Shown: one piece after another, positions 8,513 to 38,638 of the stretch
How the letters are laid out: each line of letters begins with the position of its first letter
How positions within the stretch are numbered: position 1 is the stretch's first letter
Source of the DNA: a virus
Virus record (IMG/VR): IMGVR_UViG_3300033145_001136
Span: 38,948-102,947 of that record
Length of the DNA stretch: 64,000 nt
Reading direction: 5' to 3' (one strand)
Notes under the pieces: generated by a model
The model's input: the letters and a program-made list of their open reading frames with translations, nothing else
Database searches by the model: none
Told to the model about the DNA's origin: nothing
Translations under genes and position numbers: made by a program

Positions 8513-9053
8513 GCCCAAGGTCCTCCATTAAATTTTTATAGGCCTTTTCCGAAAAATAACCCAGGCGCGGATTTGCGCCTGGTCTAGATTCAGACGTATC
8601 AACTAGCCTTACCTTACCCCTAATCACCGGCTGCCTGCCATGTCGCTGAAGCACCCTGGTTATCGTATCTCCAGTTACATCGTGTTTTCTAGCCAATTGT
8701 GCTCGCGTAGCCCCAATTTTATATTCGTAACAAATATCCTGCTCTTCTCTTGGTGTAAATCTATACCAATAATATCCAGCCTTACCATCACTTGTTATAA
8801 TGGCCCGCATATATCCCTTGACCTTTGCCTTAGTTTTTCTTGGACATGTGCCATGACGTTTAAGCACCCTAGAGATTGTACTTACCGACACTTCGTGTTT
8901 TTTAGCTAGCTGTAATCTCGTAATCCCCATCTTGTGTTCACAGCAAATATTCAGCTCTTCATTTGGCGTAAACCTATACCAGTAGCTCCCAAGCCTCCCA
9001 TTTTCCAGAGTAAGGACCCGCATATATCCTCTTACTTTAGTTTTGCCAGCCAT
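8484..9053 (-). CDS. Tandem-repeat helix-turn-helix protein
   Basis: 189 residues containing one ~60-residue unit twice. Unit 1 runs from GYMRVLTLENGR to VSTISRVLKRHG, unit 2 from GYMRAIITSDGK to GDTITRVLQRHG. Each unit has a YWYRFTP strand followed by a helix-turn-helix of the recombinase or homing-endonuclease accessory type (QLAKKHEVS.STISRVL). Probably DNA-binding, perhaps a repressor of the adjacent replication genes, or the DNA-recognition part of a lost homing nuclease. ATG at 9053 overlaps the upstream stop by one base (TAATG). Its last ~30 bases overlap the start of dnaE, which could couple the two translationally. Confidence 0.75.
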   Translation of the reverse strand: MAGKTKVRGYMRVLTLENGRLGSYWYRFTPNEELNICCEHKMGITRLQLAKKHEVSVSTISRVLKRHGTCPRKTKAKVKGYMRAIITSDGKAGYYWYRFTPREEQDICYEYKIGATRAQLARKHDVTGDTITRVLQRHGRQPVIRGKVRLVDTSESRPGANPRLGYFSEKAYKNLMEDLGREIRTPTQP

Positions 9054-15400: not shown

Positions 15401-17396
15401 CAGGATGTGCCATTATTTTGGATAGCAGTTCAGCCTTATGCCTACTTAACATAAATGGGATCATATCCCTTGCAAGTCGTCTAAGACTGTCTCCATTTAT
15501 GATTAATTCCCAATATTTGTGGCTATTTTCAAACCCACCTTTTGGCCTTTTTCTATAGTATAGTTTACTTATAACATTCCTACCAAGTAGCGCAATATGT
15601 AAATCATTTAATAAATCAAATGATGCGGACCCAAACCTAATATTTACATCCTTCCCCACTCTAAAATTGCATGTACCGTCTGCGCTAAAATATCCCGCCA
15701 AAAACGCATAAAATTCGTCATTGGGTAGTCTCATTATCTCGGGACCAAGCCTCTTCGTTCTGGCCTTCCCAGAATATCCCAATCTCAAAAATCGCGCATG
15801 GTACGCCTTTCGTGCAACCCTTAGATTCCACGGTGGCTCACCCACACTACCACTACTTTGTTTAATGTCGTTGGTTGGCAACCCCTCTGTTTTTAAAAAT
15901 TTAACATATTGACCAAGCGCATATTTGTCGTCTTTACCGAAGCACATCCCGACCAGATAGCTTTTGAATAAGGGACTATTATGTTTTTTAGTTTGTGCCA
16001 CCCATCCATCGCCTAGAGCAAATCCATAGAATCTAAGAAAATCAATGGACTCCCCAGACCGCTCAGAATGTATCGTATCAACCAAGTTATGTGGTGATAG
16101 GTTATCAGATTCCATAAGGTTAGCAGCCTCAATCCATCCCCTATTTGTTTTTATTGGGTGATTGCCGGTCACCTTTATTACGCCGCCAATAGACGTTTTT
16201 ATATGGAATATTCGTTTGCGCCCAGTTTTGATCAACTTGGCTAATTTTGGCCCTTGTTCTGTAGTAAGCATAATCTCTGTGGAATCAAGTAACTCATCTA
16301 CTCGTACACATCCATCTGGCGTAAGAACCCACGTATCCCCAGTAACACAGGGGTTACAACTATTAATGCGCTCAATCTCTCGAACCGGGTTATATTCATT
16401 AATAGTTGTATCATATTGTATCCCAGGATCGCCACATTCCCATGCCGCCTCTGCCATTTGCCGCAATATATCTCTTGCCCGCACCATTTTCACTATCCAT
16501 GATGCATCTTGCTCTTTGCGCGACATCAAAGCCCATTCCCCGTCCGATATGGCAGCCTGCATAAACGCATCTGTTACACGTACCGAATGGTTAGCATTCT
16601 GGAAATATAGATTTTTGTATACCAGTCCTTCTAAATCACCGTCATGCCCCATTTCAATAAGATCATGTGCCTTGCGCTCTTCAAGCGGTTTGCACCAAAT
16701 AAATTCTTCTATATCAGGGTGATCTGCCTCTAAAATGCGCATACATGCGGCTTTTCTGCTCGTAGTCCCCGACTTTATTACACCCGCAAATGCGTCATAC
16801 CCTTTCATAAATGGGACCGGGCCAACAGCCAGACTTTTGTGTGAAATCATCTCATGGGATGATCGAATGGGTGATAGATTCGTCCCAGAACCCCCACCTT
16901 GCTTAAAAATCATTCCTTCTGTTTTTGCTAGCTCAAGGATAGACTCCATGGAATCTTCCACACTGTTGATAAAACACGCAGATAAAATTGACTTAGAATT
17001 GCTCTTTACACCAAGATTAAACCATACCGGACTATTAAAGGAGGCTCGTTGGTCTAGTAGGATATAGGTTAGTTCATCACGAAATGCAAAACTCTCTTGA
17101 TCGGTTGTGAAATAGCCATGTTTAACGCCACCTTGCACAATGGTATCCACTACCCGCTTTACCATCTGTGCCACAGAGATTTCTCGCTCTGGTGTATCTT
17201 GCGCACCACTGAAATATTTTTGTGCAACTATATTTACTGCGGTCTGCGACCAACTTTCTGGCACCCTTACATCGTCTTGCTCAAAAACGATTGTCCCATC
17301 TACTTTTGCAATCTCCGCCCGTACTTCTTTCCATGGGAATTGACTAACTACCGGTACATTTTCCTCCGTAAAGACACGCGTTACCTGCAGTCCCAT
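12429..17396 (-). CDS. nrdJ: Adenosylcobalamin-dependent (class II) ribonucleotide reductase with two inteins
   Basis: 1655 codons: 880 residues of reductase plus two in-frame inteins of 361 and 414 residues. The spliced protein has NPC-AEF (the family's radical-cysteine loop), SACNLASLNL, CETTGIEPDIALV, SGGISK-TVNLPN and the Cys-rich C-terminus CSDCGMEMEKQGTCYICRHCG typical of class II NrdJ. It converts ribonucleotides to deoxyribonucleotides using B12, without oxygen or a small subunit, feeding DNA synthesis. Intein 1 interrupts NPC|AEF and intein 2 interrupts ISK|TVN. The start has GAGGAG upstream and dUTPase ends 14 bases before it. Confidence 0.95.
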   Translation of the reverse strand: MGLQVTRVFTEENVPVVSQFPWKEVRAEIAKVDGTIVFEQDDVRVPESWSQTAVNIVAQKYFSGAQDTPEREISVAQMVKRVVDTIVQGGVKHGYFTTDQESFAFRDELTYILLDQRASFNSPVWFNLGVKSNSKSILSACFINSVEDSMESILELAKTEGMIFKQGGGSGTNLSPIRSSHEMISHKSLAVGPVPFMKGYDAFAGVIKSGTTSRKAACMRILEADHPDIEEFIWCKPLEERKAHDLIEMGHDGDLEGLVYKNLYFQNANHSVRVTDAFMQAAISDGEWALMSRKEQDASWIVKMVRARDILRQMAEAAWECGDPGIQYDTTINEYNPVREIERINSCNPCVTGDTWVLTPDGCVRVDELLDSTEIMLTTEQGPKLAKLIKTGRKRIFHIKTSIGGVIKVTGNHPIKTNRGWIEAANLMESDNLSPHNLVDTIHSERSGESIDFLRFYGFALGDGWVAQTKKHNSPLFKSYLVGMCFGKDDKYALGQYVKFLKTEGLPTNDIKQSSGSVGEPPWNLRVARKAYHARFLRLGYSGKARTKRLGPEIMRLPNDEFYAFLAGYFSADGTCNFRVGKDVNIRFGSASFDLLNDLHIALLGRNVISKLYYRKRPKGGFENSHKYWELIINGDSLRRLARDMIPFMLSRHKAELLSKIMAHPVDNYGHDRWEIKVKEVIDTGVEEDVYDFVVDDVHHFYANGYMVHNCAEFAFVDDSACNLASLNLMKFWHPEKLLEMHDFAHTVRIMIIAQDIIINLAGYPTDKIAHNSLKYRPIGLGYTNLGSLLMRKLMPYDSPEARATAAVITATMHVHALMQSMELAKVLGAFPAYEQCKRSYANVMGLHAGAFQHNVPEYGKYVDPEILSELSAYYDMLPMHIGGFRNAQVTVLAPAGTISFMMDCETTGIEPDIALVKKKKLIGGGIISMVNRDISYILDDLGYDDVMISETMKALTMGDNISNWVLPDEAPIFATALGDNQIFPEGHIKMMAAVQPYLSGGISKCVSGDTIVNTADGMKRIGEIYGGEMVEDSFDSLNLPVSGRGGLNIAAETYYNGVRETVAVTLNDGRRLVGTGGHKILVAGQDSLYWKSLDELEPGDMAAVSLGQDVWGSNQTIEFVPASIYGTQHKGVIFPDRMTEDLATFLGMLTADGHVIRSNYVVGITKNNPEVRTRALELFSSLFGLQAYDKVDARTGVHCILVGSKGLVEFLDHIGFTKECVPSIILGSSRGVCLAYLSGLYLDSYVGSSLRLCQRRDGLLRDVQMIWTNLGIQTYMTDNVVREVNYPVLHVSRHQARDAGKLLTWFEEHKRTRARELSNGINVNKFPFHNIRLELLDKIRFLHKTQEFRNMFDSRTRMIRMSTFLDVATRIEFEFNPEIVEYIYVPVVDVRQSEAQLVYDLSVPETHSYAANGIISHNTVNLPNTATVDDIYNLYMEGWKLGLKSLAIYRDQSKKIQPVTVESKKSIKTVPHAMDVDMEPKIGVIKPTREKLPDTSDNMIRHKFVVANHKGYLKVGRYPDGRPGEIFIVMAKVGSTISGLMETIGILWSIGLQFGVPLDITLRKLSNIRFEPSGFTKNKDIPIAKSLVDYIVKCLAIWFDVDLTNGNGDMSVNELEQNVDGWEDTQICSDCGMEMEKQGTCYICRHCGTSTGCS
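13140..14381 (-). mobile_element. Intein 2 in nrdJ with a diverged LAGLIDADG endonuclease
   Basis: Residues 1006-1419 of the precursor, 414 residues. Begins CVSGDTIVNTADG, has block B GTGGHKILV, and ends HSYAANGIISHN followed by Thr as the +1 residue. The first endonuclease motif is FLGMLTADGH. The second reads YLSGLYLDSYVG, without the usual Asp-Gly ending, so nuclease activity may be weakened or lost. Splicing residues (Cys1, block B His, final His-Asn, +1 Thr) are present. Confidence 0.92.
15267..16349 (-). mobile_element. Intein 1 in nrdJ with LAGLIDADG homing endonuclease
   Basis: Residues 350-710 of the precursor, 361 residues. The start block is CVTGDTWVLTPDG; block B holds TGNHPIKT; the end is HHFYANGYMVHN followed by Cys. 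Two LAGLIDADG motifs are visible, FYGFALGDGW and FLAGYFSADGT, so the homing endonuclease looks intact. The first extein residue (Cys711) is the nucleophile for splicing and, by family alignment, the thiyl-radical cysteine of the reductase, so the enzyme cannot be active before splicing. Confidence 0.93.
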
Positions 17397-17410: not shown

Positions 17411-17935
17411 CTATTTGCCTGTACTACCAAATCCTTTATCACCACGATCTGTTTGTGGTAATGTATTAACAGCACGTACCTTTATCCCACGAACTCGACG
17501 CATCATTATTAGCTGAAACAGTCTGTCTCCATTACATATTTCTATGGCCTCATTTGTATGGTTGTGGAGATATGACATCAATTCGCCTGTGTAGCCTTCG
17601 TCAATGATCCCGGTCAAAACAGAAACCCCTCGCACACCAGTCGATGAACGACCAACAATTCTACCCCAGCAATTTCTAGGAAGTTTTATATGTACTCCTG
17701 TACTTACGTCGATTGTTCCACGTGGTGGGAGAATAATTCTACCTTCTGGAATCCAACATTTTAGATCTATTCCACAATCACCAGAATATTTAAATCCTAA
17801 TCCCCTGTGTGATTCTGGTAAGCCATAAGCATATTTGATTTTGAGACATACACCTGGAGCTCGAATAAGTAATCTTATGAGGAGTATACTATTCAGGCTC
17901 GTCAGGAAGTAAAGAACCAGCGTCAGCATATCCAT
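17411..17935 (-). CDS. dut: dUTPase (dUTP pyrophosphatase)
   Basis: All five trimeric dUTPase motifs are present in order: SGDCGIDL, GRSSTG, GIIDEGYTGEL, GDRLFQLI and the C-terminal RGDKGFGSTG arm. It hydrolyses dUTP to dUMP and PPi, keeping uracil out of DNA and supplying dTMP precursor. The conserved domain starts at LKIKYAYG, where no ATG/GTG/TTG is in frame. The nearest usable starts lie 40-60 bases inside the upstream gene, and ATG 17935, six bases from GGAG, is my choice. That adds an odd hydrophobic leader, so the true start may be a rare codon nearer 17880. Confidence 0.88.
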   Translation of the reverse strand: MDMLTLVLYFLTSLNSILLIRLLIRAPGVCLKIKYAYGLPESHRGLGFKYSGDCGIDLKCWIPEGRIILPPRGTIDVSTGVHIKLPRNCWGRIVGRSSTGVRGVSVLTGIIDEGYTGELMSYLHNHTNEAIEICNGDRLFQLIMMRRVRGIKVRAVNTLPQTDRGDKGFGSTGK

Positions 17936-18434
17936 CATCTGCTCCATTGCTATTAATCGATGTTGCGTCACGTAACTGAGAAACCAATTCATACAAATAT
18001 TCCGGCAGGGTATCTGCTGTCGCCTTTATATCGGCATATACATTTGCATATACAGAAACCGACCCGGGCACAACCAACGCGATATTGCTAATAATTTTGT
18101 GTTCAAAATTCTGTAGATATTCGGCACTCGATATCAATAACTCTATTGGCGTCCCAATAGATAACCTTGATGGATTAGTGAAATTGAGAATAACTATGTC
18201 TGCTTCCAATACCGCTGCTCTATTTATTTCTGCTATATAATTACTAACTTGCACACTTGTTGGTGGGCCATTTAATTTATATGGACGATCTGGTAAAAAG
18301 ATACAATATCCAACTCCCAATTTCTCACACACCACTTCAATGAGTTCCATTACCTCACCCTGTGATATACCAGCATGAATCTCTGGTGGGCAGTCAATCG
18401 GCCCACCAAGATAAAAATTAATTGCCATATCCAT
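17889..18434 (-). CDS. Nucleoside 2-deoxyribosyltransferase-like protein
   Basis: 181 residues. INFYLGGPIDCPP matches the N-terminal strand and glycine loop of the NDT family. INRAAVLEADIVILNFT followed by SIGTPIEL matches the family's D.ADvvianL ... S.GTafElG segment with its catalytic Glu. Family members swap the base on deoxyribonucleosides or hydrolyse deoxynucleotides. The placement between a kinase-like gene and dUTPase suggests deoxynucleotide salvage or pool editing. The C-terminal ~40 residues are low-complexity and acidic. GGAG lies nine bases from the ATG. Exact substrate unknown. Confidence 0.7.
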   Translation of the reverse strand: MDMAINFYLGGPIDCPPEIHAGISQGEVMELIEVVCEKLGVGYCIFLPDRPYKLNGPPTSVQVSNYIAEINRAAVLEADIVILNFTNPSRLSIGTPIELLISSAEYLQNFEHKIISNIALVVPGSVSVYANVYADIKATADTLPEYLYELVSQLRDATSINSNGADDGYADAGSLLPDEPE

Positions 18435-18436
18435 AA

Positions 18437-19081
18437 TTATGTTCTCCTATGGCGGAATTTCTTAAGTTGCGCAGTCATTTCTTGTCTAATCATGGTGGCG
18501 ATTGGCTGAATACCACCAGCCGATAGTTCTTGCTTCGTACTGTGTATAAATTTACAATATGGTAAGGTATCTTGGATCGTTAGATAAATTGTACCCGTAC
18601 CTGTAAATGTAGTAGCTGTAGGATACTCTTCCCGTATCGCCGCAATAGTCTCAACACATCTAGCAGTATCTGCAACAATACGCTTATTAACGCTGTCCGT
18701 GGTCATATCATATATGTCACGACCACGTGCAAGACATCGCTTAAGTAAAATTTCTCTCTGACATTGAAAATCAACGCACACATCGATTTCAATGTCATTG
18801 TCTTTTAAGAATTGGACCTGTTCTGCTGTACGTGGAAATCCATCCAAGATGATCATTTTATTACTGTTCTCTTCCATCATTCGTAACACAGTATTTCTTA
18901 TAATCTCCTCTGCTGGATGCAATTCCCCCTCTGCAAGTGCTGCATCTGCTTCGTCTGACTCAATGGTTCTAGCTATATCGCCAGAAGAAATATGTGCAAA
19001 TTCATCAGTCTGCTTAACAATTTCTCTAGCATATGACGACGTACCGCTTCCTGTCGGACCTACAAATGTAATAACGATCAT
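18437..19081 (-). CDS. Adenylate kinase-like nucleotide kinase with altered P-loop
   Basis: 214 residues with the adenylate-kinase plan: ITFVGPTGSGTSSYAREI near the start, HISSGDIAR (NMP-site strand), IILDGFPRT (NMP-binding DGFPR motif) and an arginine-rich LID segment (KRCLARGRDI). The Walker A loop is GPTGSGT-S where the family has GxPGxGK-G. The invariant Lys is Thr (codon ACG, one base from AAG). Lys normally holds the ATP beta/gamma phosphates, so activity is doubtful or altered. It sits between the ADA-like and NDT-like genes. Confidence 0.75.
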   Translation of the reverse strand: MIVITFVGPTGSGTSSYAREIVKQTDEFAHISSGDIARTIESDEADAALAEGELHPAEEIIRNTVLRMMEENSNKMIILDGFPRTAEQVQFLKDNDIEIDVCVDFQCQREILLKRCLARGRDIYDMTTDSVNKRIVADTARCVETIAAIREEYPTATTFTGTGTIYLTIQDTLPYCKFIHSTKQELSAGGIQPIATMIRQEMTAQLKKFRHRRT

Positions 19082-19083
19082 TG

Positions 19084-20151
19084 TTATTCCTCTCTTGGCA
19101 TCGAAACTTTATTTCCTGGTTGAGCTTCGTTAGGGATTTCACCCCTATAATCAAATGCATGAACAAACCCACCACGAATAATATTGAGCATTTCAAAGTC
19201 AGCAACAAAATCACTTATCATACAAAGTTCATTGGTAAGGTTTGTATTTGATATTGTTAAGTTGTCAGAATTTATTGTTACCGGGATTCCAAAATCTAAC
19301 ATATATCTAAGTGGAAACGCGTGCTTGTATTTTACCGATCCCGTGTGAAAAGATGAAGACGGGCATAATTCAATTGGCGCGCCATAATCTCGCAATAATC
19401 GCATAATTCCTTTGTCATCCACTGCTCTATAACAATGTCCCAATCGATCCGGTTCAAGAGCTTCCACTGCTTCACCAATCATGTATGCCGGACAATTTTC
19501 TCCTATGTGAAAAGTCGCCTTCATCCCGCATCCCCTAGCCATAGAAAAGGCTTCATGAAATAATTTAGGAGAAATCGCTTCGTATCCTGCAGCATCAAAC
19601 CCAACTACAAACTTATCCATTAATTGTGTTCTGTGACTAAATACCTCGTCAAGCATATGTGTGGCTACTTTGGGCCCTTCCTGTCGCATAGCGATAACAA
19701 TAGCTCTACCGGTGATGTCGTCAAACATATCCCCTACCATCGCTAATCCCTCACATACCGCATTTACTGTATCTGCGACACCAAGTCCACGTCGCATATG
19801 TAGAGTTGGCGCAAATCTCAATTCAAAATATGTAACATTATCTTTTTTTAGTTGTTGACCTATGTTTATTACGCTATCCCGCAATAAATCGTATGTCTGA
19901 GTTATCCACAGTGGATAAAAGAAACAATCCAAATATTCTAATAACGTATTAGCATTTGCCGCAGATAGTTTTGCTCGTAATCGTCCAACATCTTGTAATT
20001 CTGGTGGCAGTATAACTCCTTCACCCATGTGCTCCACTTCTTTAGACAAGTGCACCATAAATTCCGGCTCTATTGATCCATCCAAGTGCAAATGTAATTC
20101 TGCTTTTGGAATTTGCCGTATTGTTTTATACCACTTATGATAATCCCTCAT
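19084..20151 (-). CDS. Adenosine deaminase family protein
   Basis: 355 residues, normal ADA length. Zinc and catalytic residues are visible: H20 and H22 in AELHLHLDGS, H215 and E218 in FHIGE, H239 in LGHC, and D296 in TINSDNL. The second Asp of the vertebrate DD pair is Asn, as in many bacterial relatives. Expected reaction: (deoxy)adenosine to (deoxy)inosine, lowering the deoxyadenosine supply. Next to a PurZ-like pathway this could serve to exclude adenine from DNA, but that is inference. ATGA overlap with the primase-helicase gene upstream. Confidence 0.85.
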   Translation of the reverse strand: MRDYHKWYKTIRQIPKAELHLHLDGSIEPEFMVHLSKEVEHMGEGVILPPELQDVGRLRAKLSAANANTLLEYLDCFFYPLWITQTYDLLRDSVINIGQQLKKDNVTYFELRFAPTLHMRRGLGVADTVNAVCEGLAMVGDMFDDITGRAIVIAMRQEGPKVATHMLDEVFSHRTQLMDKFVVGFDAAGYEAISPKLFHEAFSMARGCGMKATFHIGENCPAYMIGEAVEALEPDRLGHCYRAVDDKGIMRLLRDYGAPIELCPSSSFHTGSVKYKHAFPLRYMLDFGIPVTINSDNLTISNTNLTNELCMISDFVADFEMLNIIRGGFVHAFDYRGEIPNEAQPGNKVSMPREE

Positions 20152-22916
20152 CCTCCCTCCTGACTACCTGGTATCATAGCGTCTATAATAAGTGGATCTG
20201 TCACTTCGTTTGTTATCTCGCTATCCGATGTCGATGTTTCCACAACAAGCGAATCTATCTCTTCAAATTGCAGAGTACCTGGCATGTCATATTCACCATT
20301 GTCGTATAACACCCGGAGTGTGTCCCCCATTTTCCCATATCTGTGCTTATCTATGGTAATTATAACATTGCCGAACTGCAAGCCTCGTTTTTTAACGATT
20401 GAATCTGGAATCTTCTTTAGTGCGATTTGTTTATCTGCATCTGCCCCCATCCCCTTTGCTCCAGCTAGTTTATATGTGGACTGTTTCATCGCATCTTGGT
20501 CATTTTCTGGTGGTTTTAACTGCTGTATCAATGTGATACTTATTTCACAATCTCGTTTCTCAGCCCTATTCTTTAAAATGGCTGTGGCTCGCTTTAGTAC
20601 CTCCCATCCCTGTGTGGTATCACGCAATCTCTCCGGGACCAATAACTGCATATAATCAATCCAGAAGTATTCGCAACCATTTTCATAGTATTCTTTATCT
20701 ATCAGCGACAACCACGATGTAATTGTCATCTCCCTTGGTCTTAAAATACGTAATTTGCCTTGTGCATATATATCTCGCACTGCCTTTACTTTGTCCATTT
20801 GTTCCACTGTTAATTGGCCAGACCTCAGTGGTGTTAGTGGAACGCCTGCGTGTTGTGCCCACATACGATATATTAGCTCTCTAGGAGGCATTTCTCCAGA
20901 GATAAACGACACCCCCACCTGTTCCTCTGCTGGGGCCAAAACCGCCATATTTTTACACACATCTACCGCAAAGGCTGTTTTGCCCACACCGAATGGGGCG
21001 GCCACATAAAATAATTGCCCCTTTTCAATCCCCTGTAATATGCGTGTTAATTTAGGCCAGTTTTCTCCCAAACTTACTCCAACTATGTCTTTACCCATAT
21101 GTTGTCGTTCTAACAATACCTCAAATGCCTCATCTGCCTGATCCAGTGGATTAGAACTTCCACTAAATCGATCTATCATACCAACATTAGTCATCTCAAG
21201 CTTGTGCTGTACCACTATATCTATAAGTTCTGTAGATAGATCTGTCGCTGCAGCAGTAAGCCGCTCTGATGATATTTTTGCTTTCCTCCTACTTGACAGA
21301 TCTATCAATTTCTCTATTGCAGACTCTATATCTACTTCATAATCATCTGCCAAACTGCGGACATAATCTGCAACCCCTGATTGTTCTATTCGATCAAAAT
21401 GTTCGCTAATAGCATCCTTAGCAATTGGAGATTCTGTGCGATATTTCTTTACTATTATGTTGAAAATTTCTATGTGCCTATTTAAATAAAAATCATCTTC
21501 TCGTAAATCAAGGATTGCTTTTGCTGCCGCTTTTTTGTCTATCATCATCGCAGTTATGACTTGTTTTTCTAGTCCAGTAGCCCGCAAATGTGCGTCGTCG
21601 CTTGTTACATTTTCCGATAACCAGTCCTTAATCAATAATGCCTCTATGTCGAGCTTTGTGGCAAGAAGGCCAATCGCGAGCTCTAGCTCCAGCCCACCGA
21701 AAACAGCTACTTGTTCACCAACTTTGGCCAAGAATTCTAATTTGTTCGTAATAGTTTCTATCGGTTCATCTGTTAGATATGCATCGATGAAAAATTCTAC
21801 CGGATGTGTCGCTGATTCAATAAGCCCCATAAATATGTCTGGGCCATTATCTTTAATAAAGCTGTCTGGATCGTCTTCCACCATGTGTGCAATCCGCACC
21901 AATGGTGGAAATGTCAATTTTCGCATAGACTCAACTAAATTAGCTGCCGACTCCAATCCTCCCTTATCACCATCTGGGCACCATATAAACTCCCTAACCT
22001 TTAATTTAGTCATTTCGTCCAAATGTTCTTGTCGTATACTTGTTCCTCGTAAGCCCACAACATTCTTAATCCCACGACTATGTGCCATCAGTACATCGTG
22101 CACTCCCTCCACACCAATAAGCTGATGTCCTGTTTTTAATAAGTTTCGCCTGGCAATATGTGACCCATATAAAAAGTTGTTATACTTTCGTAAAGGATGC
22201 TTGTTTGAGAATCCCTTGTATTTCCAATCGTCAACCCCTATGCGCGTTATTTGAAAATCAACAATGAAATCCCCGCTAATCCCTTGGGCCGTGGCGTAAT
22301 GTGGATACACCAATACTTCACGAAATCGCTCTGGTATGTTATCTTGTGTACTTCCTGGTATTACTAATTCTAGTTGTATGGCCTCATCATATGACACATC
22401 ATTATTCCGCAGGTGCTCCATTAGGCCTGCCTCGTTACTACACCAGCCAATACCAAAAGCATTTATTGTATCAAGGTCAATCCCCCGAACATCTATTAAA
22501 TGATTATATGCCGCTGCATTTTTTATTAGTTCGGCACTAAAATAATCACCCGCTAATTTCATAATTGTAAAATATCTAAACATCGCCAACTCTGCGGGCG
22601 TTGGCTCCCTATGGTATTTATCTACATCAATTGCAAATTCTGACGCCAAATGTTCTAGAGCTTCAACGTACGTCAATCCATGCATAAACTCTACCCAACT
22701 AATTATATCACCCTGTGCCTTACACCCAAAACAATAATATCCATTTGATTCGTGATATACTGTCAACGATGGAGTTTTCTTATCTTGATGAAATGGGCAC
22801 ATAAATTTTGTATATGACGAGGTCTCAAGACATGGGGCCAGGTCTTGTCCCATATACTCCACCAGCGGGATCGCGCTCTTTACAACATCTCTAAGTTGAT
22901 TTGTTTCAATAAGCAT
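20148..22916 (-). CDS. Fused DnaG-DnaB primase-helicase
   Basis: 922 residues. A CHC2 zinc finger lies at C40, H43, C62, C65. A TOPRIM primase core follows (IGVEGVHDVLM near 267-277 and CPDGDKGG near 313-320). Next is a helical segment like the DnaB N-terminal domain (near 450-510, with DDFYLNRHIEIFNIIV) and a RecA-type helicase: Walker A APFGVGKTA near 640-648 and FWIDYMQLLV near 751-760. It should prime and unwind at the phage fork. T7 gp4 has a similar order but lacks a DnaB N-domain. The ATG overlaps the previous stop (TAATG). Confidence 0.92.
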   Translation of the reverse strand: MLIETNQLRDVVKSAIPLVEYMGQDLAPCLETSSYTKFMCPFHQDKKTPSLTVYHESNGYYCFGCKAQGDIISWVEFMHGLTYVEALEHLASEFAIDVDKYHREPTPAELAMFRYFTIMKLAGDYFSAELIKNAAAYNHLIDVRGIDLDTINAFGIGWCSNEAGLMEHLRNNDVSYDEAIQLELVIPGSTQDNIPERFREVLVYPHYATAQGISGDFIVDFQITRIGVDDWKYKGFSNKHPLRKYNNFLYGSHIARRNLLKTGHQLIGVEGVHDVLMAHSRGIKNVVGLRGTSIRQEHLDEMTKLKVREFIWCPDGDKGGLESAANLVESMRKLTFPPLVRIAHMVEDDPDSFIKDNGPDIFMGLIESATHPVEFFIDAYLTDEPIETITNKLEFLAKVGEQVAVFGGLELELAIGLLATKLDIEALLIKDWLSENVTSDDAHLRATGLEKQVITAMMIDKKAAAKAILDLREDDFYLNRHIEIFNIIVKKYRTESPIAKDAISEHFDRIEQSGVADYVRSLADDYEVDIESAIEKLIDLSSRRKAKISSERLTAAATDLSTELIDIVVQHKLEMTNVGMIDRFSGSSNPLDQADEAFEVLLERQHMGKDIVGVSLGENWPKLTRILQGIEKGQLFYVAAPFGVGKTAFAVDVCKNMAVLAPAEEQVGVSFISGEMPPRELIYRMWAQHAGVPLTPLRSGQLTVEQMDKVKAVRDIYAQGKLRILRPREMTITSWLSLIDKEYYENGCEYFWIDYMQLLVPERLRDTTQGWEVLKRATAILKNRAEKRDCEISITLIQQLKPPENDQDAMKQSTYKLAGAKGMGADADKQIALKKIPDSIVKKRGLQFGNVIITIDKHRYGKMGDTLRVLYDNGEYDMPGTLQFEEIDSLVVETSTSDSEITNEVTDPLIIDAMIPGSQEGG

Positions 22917-28362: not shown

Positions 28363-29784
28363 CTAAGATAATAGGCCGAATTTTTCATATCGCCGTTTTC
28401 TTTCTCTAGCATGTTTATCAAGGTATTTTACCCCATCGCAAAGGTCATATACCACTGGCTGCTTACTGTCATCTGCCCAGTCCCTCCTCAACACTCGACC
28501 TACAGGCTGGATGGCGTCACGACCACCCGCAGCCAGAATTAGTACCGCTGCTTTAGGAGCATCAAACCCTCGGTGAACCAGGGTCGAGATTAAAACCGGT
28601 ATATCACCATTACGGTATCTCTTAATAATGTCTGTCCTATCGTGTGTCTTACTACACGCAAATTCCGCTTGAACCCCATATCCTCTAATTTGGCGCGTGA
28701 TTTCTTTCCCATGCTCAATCTGCTTAACACAAATCAGCACTATGTTCCCACTATCTACCTCGTTAACTACCATATCAGCAATCATGGCATTTCTACTTGA
28801 ATTATTTACCACCTGTGTTGAATAAATTTCATTATACGCAGTTAATTTATTTTCCCCAACTGCCCCCCATTCTTTCTTAAAATCCGCCTCCGGAACCTCG
28901 ATAAACTTGAATTCGGGTTTCAAGATTAACCCAGATTCAAATGCCATTTTATATCCAACATCATATATAATTGGGCCGATCGCGGCCTCCATCATTAGAT
29001 CTCTTTTGTCAAGCCTGTATGGGGTTGCGGTTGCCCCGAATACATGATCGGATTTCTTAAAATGTGATAGCAGATCAAATATTGAATTGGCGGGCACTAT
29101 ATGACACTCGTCAACCATTACTACTTCTGTATCCTCGATAAAAGCCAAAATCTCTCGTTTATATTCTATGTTGCCCTTAATCACACGTCCCTCATATTTA
29201 AGATCCAATGCAGCACACAAACTCTGATCTGAGCAAACCGTAATGTCTTGAATATCAAAATCCCTGCCAGATATCTCACCTATCGGTACTCCTAGGCATT
29301 CTCGCAGGGTTTCTCGAGCCTGATCTATAAGAATTAATTCATCACAAATAAAACACGTTTTACGTTGAAGTTCCGCAATCATGTTAGCCATAATTAACGT
29401 CTTGCCTGTGCCAGTTGGTAACGAAATCAATCCACGCATAGATTGAACTGCAGTATCAACACAACCACGTTGAAAATCTACAAGGGTCAAGCCCCCAACA
29501 TAGGATAAGTCTAGGCTCGGGTCTGAATATGTAGATTCGTCTTCTAGCTCATATTCTAAAGGCCATAGTTCTTTTATGATTTTCGGCAATAAGCCAATCC
29601 GGAATTTTAATCTTTTTTTAGTTAATAATCGTGTATATCCATCCCACCTGCCACTTTTATATAGTCTAGAAAATTGAAATCCATCCTGTCTAAAACTACA
29701 GCTTTTATATAATTTCCTAGCAATCTGCTCCTCAATGCCACCCATGATTTGCCCATGTGTGTTATTTATCTTAATTGTTATCAT
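28363..29784 (-). CDS. UvsW-like superfamily 2 DNA helicase
   Basis: 473 residues. An N-terminal DNA-binding-like segment (SRLYKSGRWDGYTRLL) resembles T4 UvsW. Helicase motifs are LPTGTGKT (122-129), VDECH (DECH 225-228), FGATATPYR, and C-terminal STLVHRGFDAPKA and QPVGRVLRR. Family role: branch migration and unwinding of recombination intermediates and R-loops. It is the first gene after the long RNA-like intergenic stretch, and I see no good ribosome binding site before its ATG. That is unusual in this window and may mean that a start signal lies in the upstream RNA. Confidence 0.9.
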   Translation of the reverse strand: MITIKINNTHGQIMGGIEEQIARKLYKSCSFRQDGFQFSRLYKSGRWDGYTRLLTKKRLKFRIGLLPKIIKELWPLEYELEDESTYSDPSLDLSYVGGLTLVDFQRGCVDTAVQSMRGLISLPTGTGKTLIMANMIAELQRKTCFICDELILIDQARETLRECLGVPIGEISGRDFDIQDITVCSDQSLCAALDLKYEGRVIKGNIEYKREILAFIEDTEVVMVDECHIVPANSIFDLLSHFKKSDHVFGATATPYRLDKRDLMMEAAIGPIIYDVGYKMAFESGLILKPEFKFIEVPEADFKKEWGAVGENKLTAYNEIYSTQVVNNSSRNAMIADMVVNEVDSGNIVLICVKQIEHGKEITRQIRGYGVQAEFACSKTHDRTDIIKRYRNGDIPVLISTLVHRGFDAPKAAVLILAAGGRDAIQPVGRVLRRDWADDSKQPVVYDLCDGVKYLDKHARERKRRYEKFGLLS

Positions 29785-29949
29785 GTTTTAGTATTGTTAT
29801 GTTTTGGATGGACTATAAAAATATAAAAAGAAGGGTCTCGATATTGAATCTCTCTAGCAATTTTCCTATCTACCCAAAATCGGGCCAGTTCCCAAGCTAA
29901 GTGTCAAGATGACTATCGGTTCGAAAGATAGATTTACAAAATTACCATA

Positions 29950-30512: not shown

Positions 30513-30596
30513 TATCTACAAAAAATGTGTTCCTTATTAATTACGCAAGTATCAATAACTAGTTTTAGAGTAGCATTATTGCCGATAAATTTTTTA

Positions 30597-30989: not shown

Positions 30990-31645
30990 ATCTTCTCATT
31001 AATTATGATGTTTGCTGCTTCTACGATTTCTTTGAACACACCGATTTTCATAATGGCAAACGCATCCATGTCCGAATCATACCGTCTGCGTAAGTGCGTG
31101 ATTCGCCCGTTCCTAACCATTCGCTCCCAATCGAGTCTAAATCCATTAGTGGGGGATCTGTCATCTCTTGAGCGTGTTGTTCTATCCACTTCATAATGGT
31201 CTGTCGAATAAGCTTCTGTACCTCTTCCCATTTGCTGTAAAAGACATAAGCTATCTGCATCAATGGCCACAAGTGTATTGTCACGTAGGTCGTACTTACG
31301 GCTGTAGGCAACAAAATGGAATCTGATCGACAATCTTTCTGCATCGCCTCTTGCCTCAAGCAACCACCCGTATTCAAACTTTGGGAAGGGATGCGGAGTT
31401 CTTGGCCCAAGAGATCGGCCAAGCTTGGTTTTTCGCTCACCATCACGTTGTTTACATTCTCCTAATAGATTTCCGGGTATTCGTACCGTTGTGCCCATCA
31501 CCTCAGTGGTAATTACATGCACCACATCACCAAGCATACCTTCTCGAGCCTCAGAATGCCCATGTGAGCCAGACCCGATTTGCCGTTCTAGTCCGAGCTG
31601 CTTAGCGACCCATCGTTCCATCCCCTTCCAGGCTGTAGATGCCAT
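30986..31645 (-). CDS. Putative PD-(D/E)XK nuclease (resolvase-like)
   Basis: 219 residues. The N-terminus WKGMERWVAKQLGLERQIGSGSHGHSEAREGMLGDVVH followed ~30 residues later by GECKQRDG gives an E...D...ExK arrangement as in archaeal Hjc-type Holliday-junction resolvases and related nucleases: Glu11, Asp in GDV, Glu and Lys in ECK. It overlaps the recA stop (TAATG), which suits a recombination role. The C-terminal half is unassigned. Family-level call only. Confidence 0.55.
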   Translation of the reverse strand: MASTAWKGMERWVAKQLGLERQIGSGSHGHSEAREGMLGDVVHVITTEVMGTTVRIPGNLLGECKQRDGERKTKLGRSLGPRTPHPFPKFEYGWLLEARGDAERLSIRFHFVAYSRKYDLRDNTLVAIDADSLCLLQQMGRGTEAYSTDHYEVDRTTRSRDDRSPTNGFRLDWERMVRNGRITHLRRRYDSDMDAFAIMKIGVFKEIVEAANIIINEKI

Positions 31646-32748
31646 TATTCCTCAGGTTCCTCCTCGGACACACTAGCCGGGCCACCCTGCAGAACAAGTT
31701 TCATCTTATTTAGGGTTTCTTGTCTGATGGTCTCTATAACATCTGGGTCTAAAGCTTCCTTAAACTTTACAACCCCATTGGCCCTAATATCACCGTAGCT
31801 GAGATATGAACTATCCGTCTTAATTACGGCCAGATGTCGTGCTGTCTTTACAAGATCATCGATCACATCCACACCAGTACCAAAATCCACGTGGAATTCA
31901 ATAGGTTCACTCTTCGCTGCCGTTTTATTTTTCTCAATTAATAATCGTATATCAACGGCTACTTCTTTTTCAATGGCCTTGCTGTCCTCATCTATAAAAT
32001 ATTTGGCCCAATATTGCTTAATACGCTTAACTCGAAACACGTATGTTCCATAAAACGATGGTGCGGTTCCACCCGAAGCTTGTTCCGACGGACCAAACAT
32101 AACCATTGGTTTCTGTCGACTCTGCGCTACTAAATTAAGGTAGCAACCTGGTTGTCGCTGGATTTCCGCGTTTGTGACTTGCAATTGTGCAGAAGTTAGT
32201 TGAGCCAATGCTGCTTTCTTTGCGGCTTGATCAACTGTTTTTGATTTCATAATCTGTGCTGGCACCAAAGCCGTGATAGAATCCTTCATAATATAAATAA
32301 TTTCGCCCGATCGAATTAGCTGATTTGTTATGTCAAACCATTCCTCGCCAGTAAGTGGACGCCCATCTAATTCCTTAATCCCGGACGTTAGATCCCTGCC
32401 AGATATCCATAATAGGTTTGGATCGTTTGGATCTACGCCGCACGCCCGCATAAAGTCTTCGTCCAGTGCTCCCTCCACATCTAATATGGCACATTTTTTA
32501 CCTATAAAATCCTCATATTGTCGGCGCTGTAATTCTTGGATCCTGGCTATCGTACATAACCCCAACATTGTTTTACCCGTGCCTTGATCACCCCACGTAA
32601 GCCCCATGCGCCCACCAACAAACCCACCAGTCCCAAGGGCCAAATCCAATGATAAAATCCCTGTTGGTATTATTAGCCGACCCTGCCTATGTTCAAACAT
32701 ACCTGGATATTGTCTCGATAAAATCGCTTCTAATGATTTATCTGCCAT
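31645..32748 (-). CDS. recA: RecA-type recombinase
   Basis: 367 residues. Walker A GDQGTGKT at 53-60; CAILDVEGALDEDFMRACGVDP matches the RecA dEnALdp..a..lGvd segment; YIMKDSITALVP is Walker B; and LNLVAQSRQKP...GGTAPSFYGTYVFRVKRI covers loop L2 and the core. The C-terminus is acidic as in RecA. It forms filaments on ssDNA and pairs homologous strands. Neighbours are a nuclease-like gene and the ssDNA-binding candidate, a recombination cluster. Confidence 0.92.
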   Translation of the reverse strand: MADKSLEAILSRQYPGMFEHRQGRLIIPTGILSLDLALGTGGFVGGRMGLTWGDQGTGKTMLGLCTIARIQELQRRQYEDFIGKKCAILDVEGALDEDFMRACGVDPNDPNLLWISGRDLTSGIKELDGRPLTGEEWFDITNQLIRSGEIIYIMKDSITALVPAQIMKSKTVDQAAKKAALAQLTSAQLQVTNAEIQRQPGCYLNLVAQSRQKPMVMFGPSEQASGGTAPSFYGTYVFRVKRIKQYWAKYFIDEDSKAIEKEVAVDIRLLIEKNKTAAKSEPIEFHVDFGTGVDVIDDLVKTARHLAVIKTDSSYLSYGDIRANGVVKFKEALDPDVIETIRQETLNKMKLVLQGGPASVSEEEPEE

Positions 32749-32753: not shown

Positions 32754-33050
32754 CTATCCCACATAGTGTATTGGGTTGCCTGGATGCGACTCAAGGTCAG
32801 GATCACAATTTTGATCATACATGCCATTTACTAGGGCGGCATCATACCAGAATGCCACCCTATTAAACAGTGCCTCACCCCATGTCTTAACCCCATGATC
32901 AAACATCCATTCAAGATAGTGTGCTAATTCAGCATCATCTGCCATATCTGATAATCGCTTGCCATTTACTCTTTTATGATATATAATTGCATCTATCTCA
33001 CCCACTGGCTCCCAATTATCGGACTGTCCTTTGACAGATTCCCACCCCAT
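32754..33050 (-). CDS. Unknown small protein
   Basis: 98 residues from ATG 33050, which overlaps the previous stop as TAATG. Contains GEIDAIIYHKRVNGKRLSDM and VKTWGEALFNRVAFWYDAAL. No family recognised. Its position between the ssDNA-binding candidate and recA suggests a recombination accessory, without direct evidence. Confidence 0.65.
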   Translation of the reverse strand: MGWESVKGQSDNWEPVGEIDAIIYHKRVNGKRLSDMADDAELAHYLEWMFDHGVKTWGEALFNRVAFWYDAALVNGMYDQNCDPDLESHPGNPIHYVG

Positions 33051-34432
33051 TAGCCACAAATCTTCGTATGCAGATCAATAATGGCATCATCTGTCCACGC
33101 ATTATAATTATAGACAGCATCGCCATCAATCTTGTGTTTAGCCGCTATCTCCTCGAGAATATCCGCAACCTCGGCAGCTTTGTCATCTGACATGGTACTT
33201 ACCTTCTCTCCAACCTCATTAATCATTGTATCGCAATCAATGATGCCAGTGCCATTTTCTTCTGCTTCAGGGGTACTCGGAGTTGCGGCTTCCAACGTAG
33301 CCCCAAGTGTCTTATCTGCTTCGCAGGCATCCCAGATCACTTTTGCTGCAGCCTTAGCCGCCAACGCCTCTGGACTTCCCTTCACATTGTTGTAAGTCCA
33401 TTTCATTCGGCCAATACCTTTGAGCGCAATGACCTCACCAAGCGTCAACCCCTTAACATCTTTACCACCTACTGGATAAATCGTAGCCAATGCGTCCTGT
33501 AACGACATTGATGGGATTGCATCTTTGGCTTCCCTAGCTGCCTTAGCTTTTGCAAAAATATCAACACCAGCCCCAGATGAAGTGGATTCTTCGGGTTTCG
33601 ACTCCTCCGCCGTCTCCTCCGGAACGGAAGATTTATCCACGACTTCTGTCACAGCAGGAGTACTGGCTTCAGGGGCAACTTTATCTGCGTTTTGCATATC
33701 GGGTGGTAAAGCCACACCAACACCAGCCACAATTGCCTTTTGTTCCTTACCAGTGATTTCACCACGCACATATTTGTGCACATAATCATGACTCTGTGGT
33801 AATTCTGCTTTTAATGCTAAAGCAAACAGCCCTTCTACGAATTCCCCAATTTCCATGCCATCGACATCTGCATCCATCACTGACCAATCGAATTCGGTCT
33901 CACCTTCTGCAAATGCACTATATTTTGTTCCGCGTCGACGTTCCATCCCCTTCTGTACCTTTTTCGTCACAATTATGTCTTGCTTGCCAAGGGACCCACG
34001 CTTCTCTTTAATCTCGTGAAGATCCTTGTAAAGCATATTACCACCCTTCAAAAATTCGACTTTCCCGGTGGTATGATTCCAAACAGGGAGCACGTGGACC
34101 ACAGTTCTTGCAAAATGAAGTGGCTGACCTTCCTTCGGTCCAGAATTGTAATATTTATCATCCTTTGCAAGCTGATCCCACATCGGATCTTCCATACCAT
34201 TCAAACCAGCATAATCGACCCCACGCTCATAATCTGGATTTGCTAAAAATGTACGGAATTGTCGCAGAATATTCTTCTTTCCTTCACCATCCACAGTAAA
34301 CACTTCCGGCACCCTATACATCCACATACTAAGTGGTTCATCACTAAGAATGCGAACTGTGTAATCTTTGTTATCATCAAATGCCACATATGGGGTACTC
34401 GATCCCTCACCTAGTACAGTTGGCCAACTCAT
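33050..34432 (-). CDS. Putative single-stranded DNA-binding protein with ExoX-C-like domain
   Basis: 460 residues from ATG 34432 (GGAGG seven bases upstream). The N-terminal half opens with YTVRILSDEPLSMWMYRVPEVF, the pattern of large gp32-like phage proteins. A long acidic Glu/Ser/Pro linker (near 275-310) separates a second domain, IYPVGGKDVKGLTLGEVIALKGIGRMKW, like the small domain at the end of ExoX-type and other phage proteins. The C-terminus is acidic. It sits just before recA. The ssDNA-binding call rests on pattern and context. The only other SSB-like sequence here is a broken copy at 41 kb. Confidence 0.5.
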   Translation of the reverse strand: MSWPTVLGEGSSTPYVAFDDNKDYTVRILSDEPLSMWMYRVPEVFTVDGEGKKNILRQFRTFLANPDYERGVDYAGLNGMEDPMWDQLAKDDKYYNSGPKEGQPLHFARTVVHVLPVWNHTTGKVEFLKGGNMLYKDLHEIKEKRGSLGKQDIIVTKKVQKGMERRRGTKYSAFAEGETEFDWSVMDADVDGMEIGEFVEGLFALALKAELPQSHDYVHKYVRGEITGKEQKAIVAGVGVALPPDMQNADKVAPEASTPAVTEVVDKSSVPEETAEESKPEESTSSGAGVDIFAKAKAAREAKDAIPSMSLQDALATIYPVGGKDVKGLTLGEVIALKGIGRMKWTYNNVKGSPEALAAKAAAKVIWDACEADKTLGATLEAATPSTPEAEENGTGIIDCDTMINEVGEKVSTMSDDKAAEVADILEEIAAKHKIDGDAVYNYNAWTDDAIIDLHTKICG

Positions 34433-34623
34433 TCCATTCCTCCTGTTTCCGTAATATTCGCCCAAAGATCTATTCTGATCCGCTTTTGCAGTTCTTTGGC
34501 TTCTTCTATCAATTCCTCTGGATCATCTGTGGATACCTCATGCTCTACCCACATACTAAAATCTTCTGATTGATAATTCCCTCTATTTATCTTTGCGCTT
34601 GCAGATGCACCGATCTTACCCAT
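34429..34623 (-). CDS. Small conserved phage protein
   Basis: 64 residues, MGKIGASASAKINRGNYQSED then a strand-rich core and an acidic helix. ATG 34623 overlaps the purZ-like stop by 8 bases (ATGGGTAA) with AGGGGA upstream. Short proteins with an N-terminal KIN.GNYES-like stretch are frequent near phage SSB/recombination genes; the role is not known to me. Confidence 0.65.
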   Translation of the reverse strand: MGKIGASASAKINRGNYQSEDFSMWVEHEVSTDDPEELIEEAKELQKRIRIDLWANITETGGME

Positions 34624-35701
34624 TAAAAATTCCCCTATCAATAAAGTGATCGTAAAACGGCCCTGTACCGACCCATCCAACCACACATTCGGGATACCGT
34701 GCTTCTATATCCTCGATAAATGATTGGACCTCAATCGTCAAGGCATCCCATTCCTGTATGCTATAATTGGCCCAATCAATATAATCTACAAAATTAAGAC
34801 ATATGGCCTGCGGCCTATTTATAGCCATAGCTTTGTCCATGTCTTCAATTGACCATGTAAATATGCGCCTAATCTTTTTAGTTACGGTCGTTTTCTCACT
34901 TAATGATTCAGGAGAGCCAGACATTTTTGTGATTTGCTTCCATGTTAGTTCTTTCCCACCTGTAGGCCCCGAATTTCCACCGACTCGAATCGGAAACGTT
35001 CTAGCAACCCCAAACACATTTCTCGCCACCCTTGGAGAAAGCCCCGCCTCCATTAACCAATTAGATGCGTTCGTGTCTCTGGAAGTACAGAATGGCCACC
35101 ACTGGGTATGATGTAGACTTAGTCCCATGCCCTGCGTCCCCTCCAACAAAATAGGCTTGTTATCATCAACCGCCTGGTTTAAAAAGGCTTCAGTATCTAT
35201 TAAATATGGCTCAAGCCAATCACAATCTTTGGCAAATTTTAGATCTTGTCTACGCCATACCTTATCAGACAATGCCGCACCACATCCCTCACGCGTACTA
35301 CCAATACGATCAGACATGTCTTGATCTTTATCGCCCTTAGCATGTTCTGCATTGATGTGTTTTTGTTCGATAATCATTGCATAGTGATCAATCCATAATC
35401 TATCTTCTACAGGCGTATTGGCCTCTGTAAGCCAATCAATCTCTTTGGAAAGCTGTGATTCAATAATCATAGCGGCTCGCCCAATAACCAACTCGCTTGT
35501 TGTTGCTTCCATCGCACCACATGGGATTGTTTGAAAAGCATGTTGTTGTGATCGATCTGGCGTCCACACCTTATGTCCAGCATTTGGGGCACCGGTTCTA
35601 ACGTGGATCGCATAATTCTTCGCAATCCTCTCAACCAGTCTACCCTTCCCCTCAGAACCATATTGTAATCCAACTACTATGTCTACACACTGATTGGGCA
35701 T
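34616..35701 (-). CDS. purZ: PurZ-type (2-amino)adenylosuccinate synthetase
   Basis: 361 residues (PurA is ~430) from ATG 35701 with GAGGGAG seven bases upstream. Adenylosuccinate synthetase motifs: VVGLQYGSEGKGRLV (P-loop), GAPNAGHKV (catalytic His), GSTREGCGAAL (IMP/GMP phosphate loop), LLEGTQGMGLSL and GLSPR. The catalytic Asp of PurA (GDEGKG) is Ser16 here (GSEGKG). From what I know of the family, Asp to Ser marks phage PurZ, which joins Asp to dGMP rather than IMP, starting synthesis of 2-aminoadenine nucleotide. The adjacent purB would complete that step. Alternative: a diverged PurA. Family certain, substrate inferred. Confidence 0.82.
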   Translation of the reverse strand: MPNQCVDIVVGLQYGSEGKGRLVERIAKNYAIHVRTGAPNAGHKVWTPDRSQQHAFQTIPCGAMEATTSELVIGRAAMIIESQLSKEIDWLTEANTPVEDRLWIDHYAMIIEQKHINAEHAKGDKDQDMSDRIGSTREGCGAALSDKVWRRQDLKFAKDCDWLEPYLIDTEAFLNQAVDDNKPILLEGTQGMGLSLHHTQWWPFCTSRDTNASNWLMEAGLSPRVARNVFGVARTFPIRVGGNSGPTGGKELTWKQITKMSGSPESLSEKTTVTKKIRRIFTWSIEDMDKAMAINRPQAICLNFVDYIDWANYSIQEWDALTIEVQSFIEDIEARYPECVVGWVGTGPFYDHFIDRGIFNG

Positions 35702-35782
35702 TATAATACTCCCTCGCAAAGTCCAGCTATTTATGTTCGCTGAGAAAATATTGGTCGAAAATATGTCAGGAAGAAATTTTTA

Positions 35783-37183
35783 TTATTTCAACACCTCTAA
35801 AATTGCGGCTTCATCCCTGAACAACGCAGTATATTCCACCATATATTCCCGCATTTCCGCAACAAATTCGTTCAAATCTAACCCCTGCGTAGCAAATCTT
35901 TCGCGCAAATATGCTGAATCCACCATTGCAAGCCATAACCCGCCACACTTTTCTATATCAAGTGGAAAATCATTTTTTATAAATTCATAAACTTCTTCTC
36001 TACCAAACCCACGCTTAGTTAATAGATTCAGCATATAATATGACCAATGCCCTGCTTGTATGTGATATGTCTCTATATTATCTTGTATCCGCTCAGTATC
36101 GACGTCTATCGTTTTTATTACTTTGGTCATGCTTGTTAGCATATGTAGTATTGTATGATATGAATCTTCTATTATTACTCTTTCTGTAGACGAATGTGAA
36201 ATATCTCTCTCGTGCCAAAGCTGCGTATTATCGAGTGTGACCATTGTGTATGATTTCATTAGTCGATGCATACCACATATTCTTTCACACGTAATTGGAT
36301 TCTTTTTATGTGGCATGGCTGACGACCCAGATGATGCTGATGGCCTTGCCTCTAATATCTCTGCTACCTCTGTGCGATGTAGGTGCCTAATTTCCATCGC
36401 TAGTTGCGCCAATATAGAAGACAGACCTGCCAGCATTGTTGATCTGCCATATTGTATCATTCTTGGCAATATTTGATCGGTTGCTTGCCACACTTCAAAG
36501 GGATAGTGTATAGACACATCATATTTTCTCCCTAGGGCTAATTTCATAAATGTGTCTTTTGCTTGTTTTTCCATGTCTCTTGTAATAAACTCATGGCAAC
36601 CCATTGGGCCACTAGCCTTAAAATAAAATTCTTGACCGTCAAACGCACCAGCGATTTTCTTAAGTAGATAATAGTATTTAAACAATTTGTGTGTTAATGT
36701 AATATATGCTCCATGGACACCATGTGTACGTCCCGACATTGGCTGACCAGCATATTGTATTATTTTATTCTCCAATATATGTATTAAATTATCTAATTCG
36801 CAAGCAACCACCCACGTCGAGTACGCCGATTGTATTTCTTGTACAGAATCAACCACATCAGATGATGTGGCCCCCCAATGTAACAAATTTCTTATATGAT
36901 CAGGTAGTTTGCCCATTAGCGCCAAATCGAGTACATTTATAAATGCCATGACATCGTGCTCAGTACGCTGTTCCTCTATGTGAATTCGTTCCACTAATTT
37001 ATTAGTATAGTCTGAATTATCTAAAAGCCCATGGCATAATCCAATTATAGCGTGCTCATTTATGTGGTCGTCTGATTTTGTAATAGTAGCCAACATAGCC
37101 ATTTCGTATGTGGTAGCTAACTCCCATTTTATTTGGTCGCCCCATATTGTTTCTATCCTCGAATCCATGTATCTATCAATCAT
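35783..37183 (-). CDS. purB: Adenylosuccinate lyase
   Basis: 466 residues from ATG 37183. Signature SGSSAMPHKKNPI near 285-297, GRTHGVHGAY with the catalytic His near 154, and HWGATSSDVVDS near 102-113 are all intact. It cleaves succinyl-purine nucleotides with release of fumarate. Next to a PurZ-like synthetase the likely substrate is the succino-2-aminodeoxyadenylate made there, giving dZMP. Known Z phages are thought to borrow the host lyase, so a phage copy is notable. ATG overlaps the nitroreductase stop by 8 bases. An 81-base AT-rich gap separates it from the purZ-like gene. Confidence 0.92.
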   Translation of the reverse strand: MIDRYMDSRIETIWGDQIKWELATTYEMAMLATITKSDDHINEHAIIGLCHGLLDNSDYTNKLVERIHIEEQRTEHDVMAFINVLDLALMGKLPDHIRNLLHWGATSSDVVDSVQEIQSAYSTWVVACELDNLIHILENKIIQYAGQPMSGRTHGVHGAYITLTHKLFKYYYLLKKIAGAFDGQEFYFKASGPMGCHEFITRDMEKQAKDTFMKLALGRKYDVSIHYPFEVWQATDQILPRMIQYGRSTMLAGLSSILAQLAMEIRHLHRTEVAEILEARPSASSGSSAMPHKKNPITCERICGMHRLMKSYTMVTLDNTQLWHERDISHSSTERVIIEDSYHTILHMLTSMTKVIKTIDVDTERIQDNIETYHIQAGHWSYYMLNLLTKRGFGREEVYEFIKNDFPLDIEKCGGLWLAMVDSAYLRERFATQGLDLNEFVAEMREYMVEYTALFRDEAAILEVLK

Positions 37184-38446: not shown

Positions 38447-38638
38447 TTATCCTGTCGGCTCGACCGGCTCGACGAATGTTGTGTGGTAATCCTCGTATTT
38501 CTTCAGGGTCAGCAGCTTGCTCTGAAGTTCAGTCAGCGAGATCGTGACCCTTCTGAAATCAGGCCCGACGCCGGTGTGTACCAGTGCGCCATAATTACCT
38601 ATCACGACAGTCAACCTTCTCGGCTTTCTCTCACTCAT
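38447..38638 (-). CDS. Small unknown protein
   Basis: 63 residues from ATG 38638, which forms an ATGA overlap with the repeat protein upstream. RRLTVVIGNYGALVHTGVGPDFRRVTISLTELQSKLLTL suggests a compact alpha/beta fold. No family recognised. Confidence 0.6.
   Translation of the reverse strand: MSERKPRRLTVVIGNYGALVHTGVGPDFRRVTISLTELQSKLLTLKKYEDYHTTFVEPVEPTG

Follow-up and report, generated by a model that had tools for sequence, protein, structure and literature searches.

An uncultivated phage with a PurZ-type synthetase, its own PurB and a family C replicase: a candidate 2-aminoadenine genome

An uncultivated phage with a genome of more than 100 kb very likely encodes a PurZ-type synthetase together with a Z-phage toolkit, and 2-aminoadenine (Z) probably replaces much of the A in its DNA. 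The genes, their motifs, the fold, the tree position, the accessory genes and the synteny are shown here; the enzyme activities, including formation of dSMP from dGMP, the order of the steps and the presence of Z in DNA are inferred, and Z remains unproven. We analyzed a 64,000-nt stretch (the window), bases 38948-102947 of the 102,947-bp IMG/VR virus record IMGVR_UViG_3300033145_001136, and examined the remainder of the record as two further stretches. Nearly all genes lie on the minus strand, and a search of the window for tRNA genes gave none. The phage has no known host and is not in culture. The main features are collected in Table 1.

Table 1. Genes of the window relevant to Z synthesis and replication (window positions).
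Feature	Position	Strand	Remarks
Family C DNA polymerase III alpha (replicase)	5078..8518	-	
Class II ribonucleotide reductase with inteins	12429..17396	-	Candidate dGTP supply
DutZ-like dUTPase-fold enzyme	17411..17947	-	dATP/dGTP diphosphohydrolase candidate; start codon uncertain
DmtZ-like NDT-superfamily enzyme	17889..18434	-	dAMP hydrolase / Z transferase candidate; profile, residues, fold
Adenylate-kinase-like NMP kinase	18437..19081	-	Candidate dZMP kinase; cassette place as in vB_BpsS-140, G002, G007
Adenosine-deaminase-family enzyme	19084..20151	-	Possible (d)A-pool depletion; substrate unknown
DnaG-DnaB type primase-helicase	20148..22916	-	Syntenic module
UvsW-like helicase	28363..29784	-	Syntenic module
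RecA recombinase	31645..32748	-	Syntenic module
ssDNA-binding protein	33050..34465	-	Adjoins PurZ
PurZ-type succinoaminodeoxyadenylate synthetase	34616..35701	-	361 aa, Ser16; donor-site Asp306 predicts GTP; motifs, profile, tree, fold
PurB adenylosuccinate lyase	35783..37183	-	466 aa; motifs intact; predicted dSMP to dZMP

The synthetase open reading frame spans 34616-35719; the probable true start is the ATG at 35701, preceded by GGAG. Residues 13-20 read QYGSEGKG, with Ser16 occupying the site of PurA Asp13, and the motifs are all present: NAGH with the catalytic His43, STREG (phosphate), EGTQG, TSRD, PIRV, and the KTTVTKKIRR loop. The protein matches the NCBIfam models for archaeal-type PurA (5.5e-72) and PurZ (9.8e-66), scoring under the cut-off of the latter (221.9 against 300 bits) and also under the curated NCBIfam PurA cut-off. 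Its sequence matches PDB entry 5k7x (1e-46), phiVC8 PurZ (4e-36), and PurZ0 (5e-36), and homology to the PurA superfamily is well past chance. An AlphaFold model (pLDDT 91) shows a confident PurA/PurZ fold. Because it matches archaeal PurA, phiVC8 PurZ (29% identity in the fold match), and PurZ0 in the PDB, the fold cannot separate the three types.

In published structures of S-2L PurZ the base pocket comprises G22, S23, N49, A50, T132, Q190, and V241, and a loop insertion draws V241 toward the sugar C2' (PMC8342488). Each residue of the dGMP pocket has its equivalent in the window enzyme (G15, S16, N40, A41, T136, Q190, and V240). The insertion that forms the 2'-deoxy loop is also present as PIRVGGNSG, where PurA proteins read PTRVG--AG or similar. 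Ser16, NAGH, this insertion, and the TTVT loop are all consistent with PurZ. In canonical PurA neither the Ser nor the insertion occurs, and the Thr of the loop is missing as well. At the nucleotide-donor site the window enzyme carries Asp306 (LNFVDY), as do PurA and PurZ0, in place of the Gln of S-2L and the Asn of phiVC8 that make an ATP-type adenine contact. Asp306 hints, from sequence alone, that the donor may be GTP. PurZ0 uses GTP.

In a tree of 42 sequences, built with the catalytic column omitted, the window enzyme falls inside the Ser clade (support 100/100) on the side of S-2L and phiVC8 (96/95), but outside both PurZ proper and PurZ0, on a deep separate branch. A quick tree of 80 rows agrees on this region but supports it less strongly. 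Approximately unbiased (AU) tests reject its grouping with PurA (p=0.025) and with the main cellular Ser/Gly clade, which reads NSGH (p=0.01); placements within PurZ proper (0.049) and PurZ0 (0.056) are borderline.

PurB lies directly upstream on the same strand, its 3' end 81 bases ahead of the PurZ ATG. Its own ATG at 37183 follows a clear GGAGGG, so that Shine-Dalgarno-like sequences precede both genes. The protein matches TIGR00928 (2.4e-70) and retains the active-site motifs TSSD, RTHG, GSSAMPHKKNP, and WHERDISHSS; in a PurB phylogeny it forms a long branch with unresolved placement. An earlier note on this DNA had described a 361-residue PurA homologue with Ser16 (GSEGKG) and the other motifs kept, directly preceded in an operon by an intact adenylosuccinate lyase; coordinates, motifs, and profiles bear out the first claim, and motifs, spacing, and strand the second. 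The note had added that the lyase step is usually credited to the host and that this phage encodes both steps. This holds here, but the combination is not new: PurB and PurZ occur together in the GenBank phages Ghobes, Sapo, Archimedes, Frizzle, Hiyaa, Keanu, Spocter, and Galactica (synthetase confirmed for several), and a PurB-family lyase is found in seven of 48 PurZ-type IMG/VR records (6/47 besides the window phage), which rules out uniqueness. We found no paper on phage PurB in Z phages in the open-access literature searched, which excludes most subscription journals. A nitroreductase-family gene (37176-37709) lies directly upstream of PurB and overlaps its start by a few bases. A further open reading frame at 38635-39204 encodes a low-complexity Ala/Asp/Val/Tyr repeat (AADAVYAADA) and is locally GC-rich.

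A second group of genes would shape the nucleotide pools. In PurZ0 phages dutZ is found in 98/98 genomes and dmtZ in 85/98, often fused (PMC12884076). In the window a DmtZ-like gene overlaps the dUTPase-like gene in the same order. The DmtZ-like protein had no match to PDB sequences, Pfam, or PHROGs in first searches, and its recognition needed profile and fold comparison. A profile seeded with the DmtZ proteins of Ghobes and Hiyaa detected it at 6e-8 while it was not yet part of the profile, and nothing else in the genome matched. Its Y8, D14, P48, N71, G94, and E98 correspond to DmtZ Y6, D12, P57, N77, G99, and E103, all six functional residues. The structural matches of its model (pLDDT 75) are nucleoside deoxyribosyltransferases (NDT) and DNPH1. 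We found no close IMG/VR relatives of the gene. It is a DmtZ candidate by sequence and fold; dAMP hydrolysis and transfer to the Z base are inferred.

The best 25 matches of the DutZ-like protein among 1130 phage records all belong to Microbacterium, Micrococcus, or Arthrobacter phages, the host groups of PurZ0 phages; PurZ was seen in Goodman, Wayne, Olihed, Jera, and IndiRoo, and the others were not checked singly. In a dUTPase tree nine ordinary dUTPases cluster by themselves (97/91). The window protein lies outside this clade, on a long branch with a weak node (72/83), nearest the Z-phage dUTPases, among them those of the PurZ carriers Goodman and Wayne and of Parvaparticeps. Parvaparticeps, labelled ordinary but on the Z side of this tree, has a PurA/PurZ-type synthetase gene. 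Membership in DutZ is likely, given the caveat of the long branch, and the activity is inferred. The DmtZ-like and DutZ-like genes together provide independent support for Z-DNA.

Adenosine deaminase is found in one of the 48 PurZ-type IMG/VR records, that of the window phage. The second Asp of the usual TDD/SDD motif is Asn in this protein (NSDN). The protein is also similar to the ADA portion of CARF-ADA proteins. The ribonucleotide reductase (RNR) gene apparently carries two intein/LAGLIDADG insertions. A uracil-DNA glycosylase (UDG) superfamily gene (10158-10850) accompanies the dUTPase-fold gene in the same phage.

No PF00476 match, and hence no DpoZ or other family A polymerase, was found anywhere in the record, which encodes a Pol III alpha instead. 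Among the 48 PurZ-type IMG/VR records the family A cut-off is reached in 26, and four have Pol III; little weight can be put on absences, since many of the records are incomplete. The window phage shares the order PurZ-RecA-(UvsW)-primase-ADK-DUT-DnaE with three divergent phages, vB_BpsS-140 (cultured), G002, and G007, whose PurZ proteins are about 33-39% identical to that of the window. The window phage has further genes in this module: ADA and the DmtZ-like gene within it, RNR and UDG ahead of DnaE, and PurB ahead of PurZ. In the literature searched, Z-DNA is replicated only by family A DpoZ or the S-2L PrimPol; in S-2L, a PrimPol without selectivity combined with removal of dATP is enough for A to be replaced completely (PMC8065100). 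No paper on Pol III in Z phages was found in the open-access literature searched, most subscription journals lying outside it.

The cultured member, Bacillus phage vB_BpsS-140 (MH884512), is deposited as DSM 29700, and its genome was sequenced by PacBio (PMC6375668). Like the window phage, it has a Ser PurZ-type enzyme, RecA, UvsW, primase, ADK, DUT, and DnaE in the same order and no reported family A polymerase; unlike it, it has a donor-site Asn, a 55 kb genome, and no PurB in the stretch scanned. In a digest published in 2019 its DNA was the only genome in the study left uncut by DraI, while EcoRI cut all (PMC6483233). The sequence contains 21 DraI sites (27 expected) and 24 EcoRI sites. 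The DraI resistance could reflect Z in TTTAAA, but it is only suggestive and concerns the relative's DNA, not that of the window phage.

With the ATP-type PurZ of phiVC8 and S-2L, which is accompanied by DatZ and in S-2L also by MazZ, it shares the catalytic-site Ser, the pocket, the 2'-deoxy loop, and the supported clade, but it differs in its deep separate branch and donor Asp. DatZ, MazZ, and PrimPol were not found in the record with simple small profiles, which a distant homologue could escape. The PurZ0 phages Ghobes, Wayne, and Hiyaa combine PurZ0 with DutZ, DmtZ, and DpoZ-1. They resemble the window phage in the DmtZ-DutZ pair in the same order, the donor Asp, and, in Ghobes and Hiyaa, a phage PurB; the window phage departs from them in a PurZ that the tree places outside the PurZ0 clade (borderline by the AU test), Pol III for DpoZ, the extra ADK, ADA, and RNR, and its larger genome. 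A different pairing is seen at about 31 IMG/VR phage PurB loci (L022-L056), where PurA is close by, in some (e.g. L035, L040) adjoining the lyase as in the window. These synthetases lack PurZ pocket features, including PIRVGGNSG, and keep the canonical Asp wherever that residue is covered. We regard these loci as encoding a pair of phage enzymes for AMP synthesis, an inferred activity, and as separate from PurZ.

Ser or Gly also occupies the catalytic site in 71 of the best 80 cellular relatives (L140-L219), some of which branch near the phage enzymes (L140). Because the function of these relatives is unknown, Ser does not prove Z-DNA, and their existence rules it out as a phage-only mark. The claim of the earlier note that Asp-to-Ser is the mark of phage PurZ thus held only in part. 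The note had named a position inside host PurA, together with an IMP-type pocket, as a refutation. This was examined and is not seen: the enzyme groups with PurZ and has a PurZ-type pocket and 2'-deoxy loop. The note's suggestion that the phage may carry Z gains support from the tree, the pocket, and the DmtZ-like and DutZ-like genes, with Z in the DNA itself unshown. The note had missed the more unusual feature, the use of a family C polymerase where DpoZ would be expected. In bacteria and archaea, 38/71 of the cellular Ser/Gly genes are flanked on one side by the gene of an RNase H-like (RNaseH_2)/DUF429/kinase protein and on the other by that of a Dcd-like protein, after which a deoxynucleoside kinase (dNK) gene often comes (e.g. 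L207:315-3532, L170:4719-7114). The full set of these partners is present in no viral PurZ locus examined, and no paper on the operon was found in the literature searched. Its function is unknown; a 2-aminoadenine-type or other modified-nucleotide pathway is conceivable.

Two regions outside the window drew attention by eye. One stretch (L003, bases 4874-19174) holds a single 4766-aa open reading frame with a metallo-beta-lactamase-like N-terminus. In the other (L004, bases 9153-11251; record 29153-31251), genes similar to phosphonopyruvate decarboxylase halves and to a PEP mutase/nucleotidyltransferase lie in a glycan-like gene cluster, and phage-made phosphonate decoration is a possibility.

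In the pathway that we propose, the phage would depend mostly on enzymes of its own for dZTP and would replicate a genome with Z in place of A. The class II RNR would supply deoxynucleotides, and the DutZ-like enzyme would convert dGTP to dGMP and dATP to dAMP. PurZ would then join dGMP and Asp into dSMP, driven by GTP, and phage PurB would release fumarate from dSMP to leave dZMP, which would be phosphorylated to dZTP by the ADK-like kinase together with host NDK. The DmtZ-like enzyme, perhaps with ADA, would remove dAMP or dA and may salvage the Z base. Pol III would insert dZTP either from a pool depleted of dATP, following the logic of the S-2L PrimPol, or through selectivity of its own. 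Several points count against Z: the missed NCBIfam cut-offs, the lack of a DatZ- or MazZ-like match to simple profiles, the lack of DpoZ, and the fact that a dUTPase beside RNR is common in ordinary phages.

The main alternative, which we consider unlikely, is that Z is made but replaces A only partly, with a Pol III that lacks DpoZ-type selection or DatZ accepting both dATP and dZTP. The absence of DpoZ from the record and of a DatZ match favors this view, as does the digestion of vB_BpsS-140 by EcoRI but not DraI, which is expected if protection is partial or depends on the site. Against it, the DutZ-like, DmtZ-like, and ADA genes would deplete dATP and dAMP, and S-2L achieves full replacement with a non-selective polymerase. 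Less likely still is a Ser/Gly-type PurA paralogue serving another, unknown nucleotide pathway in a phage with ordinary A. The prevalence of Ser or Gly among cellular relatives, and the position of L140 and others near the phage enzymes, speak for it; rejection of the grouping with the main cellular clade, viral PurZ loci at which the cellular operon partners are never complete, and the DmtZ/DutZ-type genes that the phage genome has instead speak against it. An ordinary PurA/PurB pair boosting AMP, as in the many viral contigs where PurA lies close to PurB, is all but excluded by the residues and the AU test, since those PurA keep Asp without PIRVGGNSG and grouping of the window enzyme with PurA is rejected.

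Substantial replacement of A by Z thus remains the preferred reading. Its distance from known Z systems is moderate: the chemistry is the same, and the synthetase lineage, pool enzymes, and polymerase are newly combined. The phage joins Pol III, a polymerase type not described for Z phages in the literature searched, to a near-complete Z gene set. In that literature the steps after PurZ are credited to the host. On balance, and by a narrow margin, we favor a bolder reading, a third class of Z phages in which Pol III alpha replicates Z-DNA, built on the PurZ-RecA-primase-ADK-DUT-DnaE module and including vB_BpsS-140; the window phage, with a synthetase and lyase of its own as well as a kinase, an RNR, and enzymes that shape the pools, would be the most self-sufficient member known. 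This can be tested now in the deposited relative, whose DraI resistance is on record and unexplained. If the reading is correct, the reported match of PurZ type with pool-enzyme type would break, and a Z phage that uses Pol III and encodes a lyase and a candidate kinase would show that a Z genome can be copied by the replicase family that dominates in bacteria.
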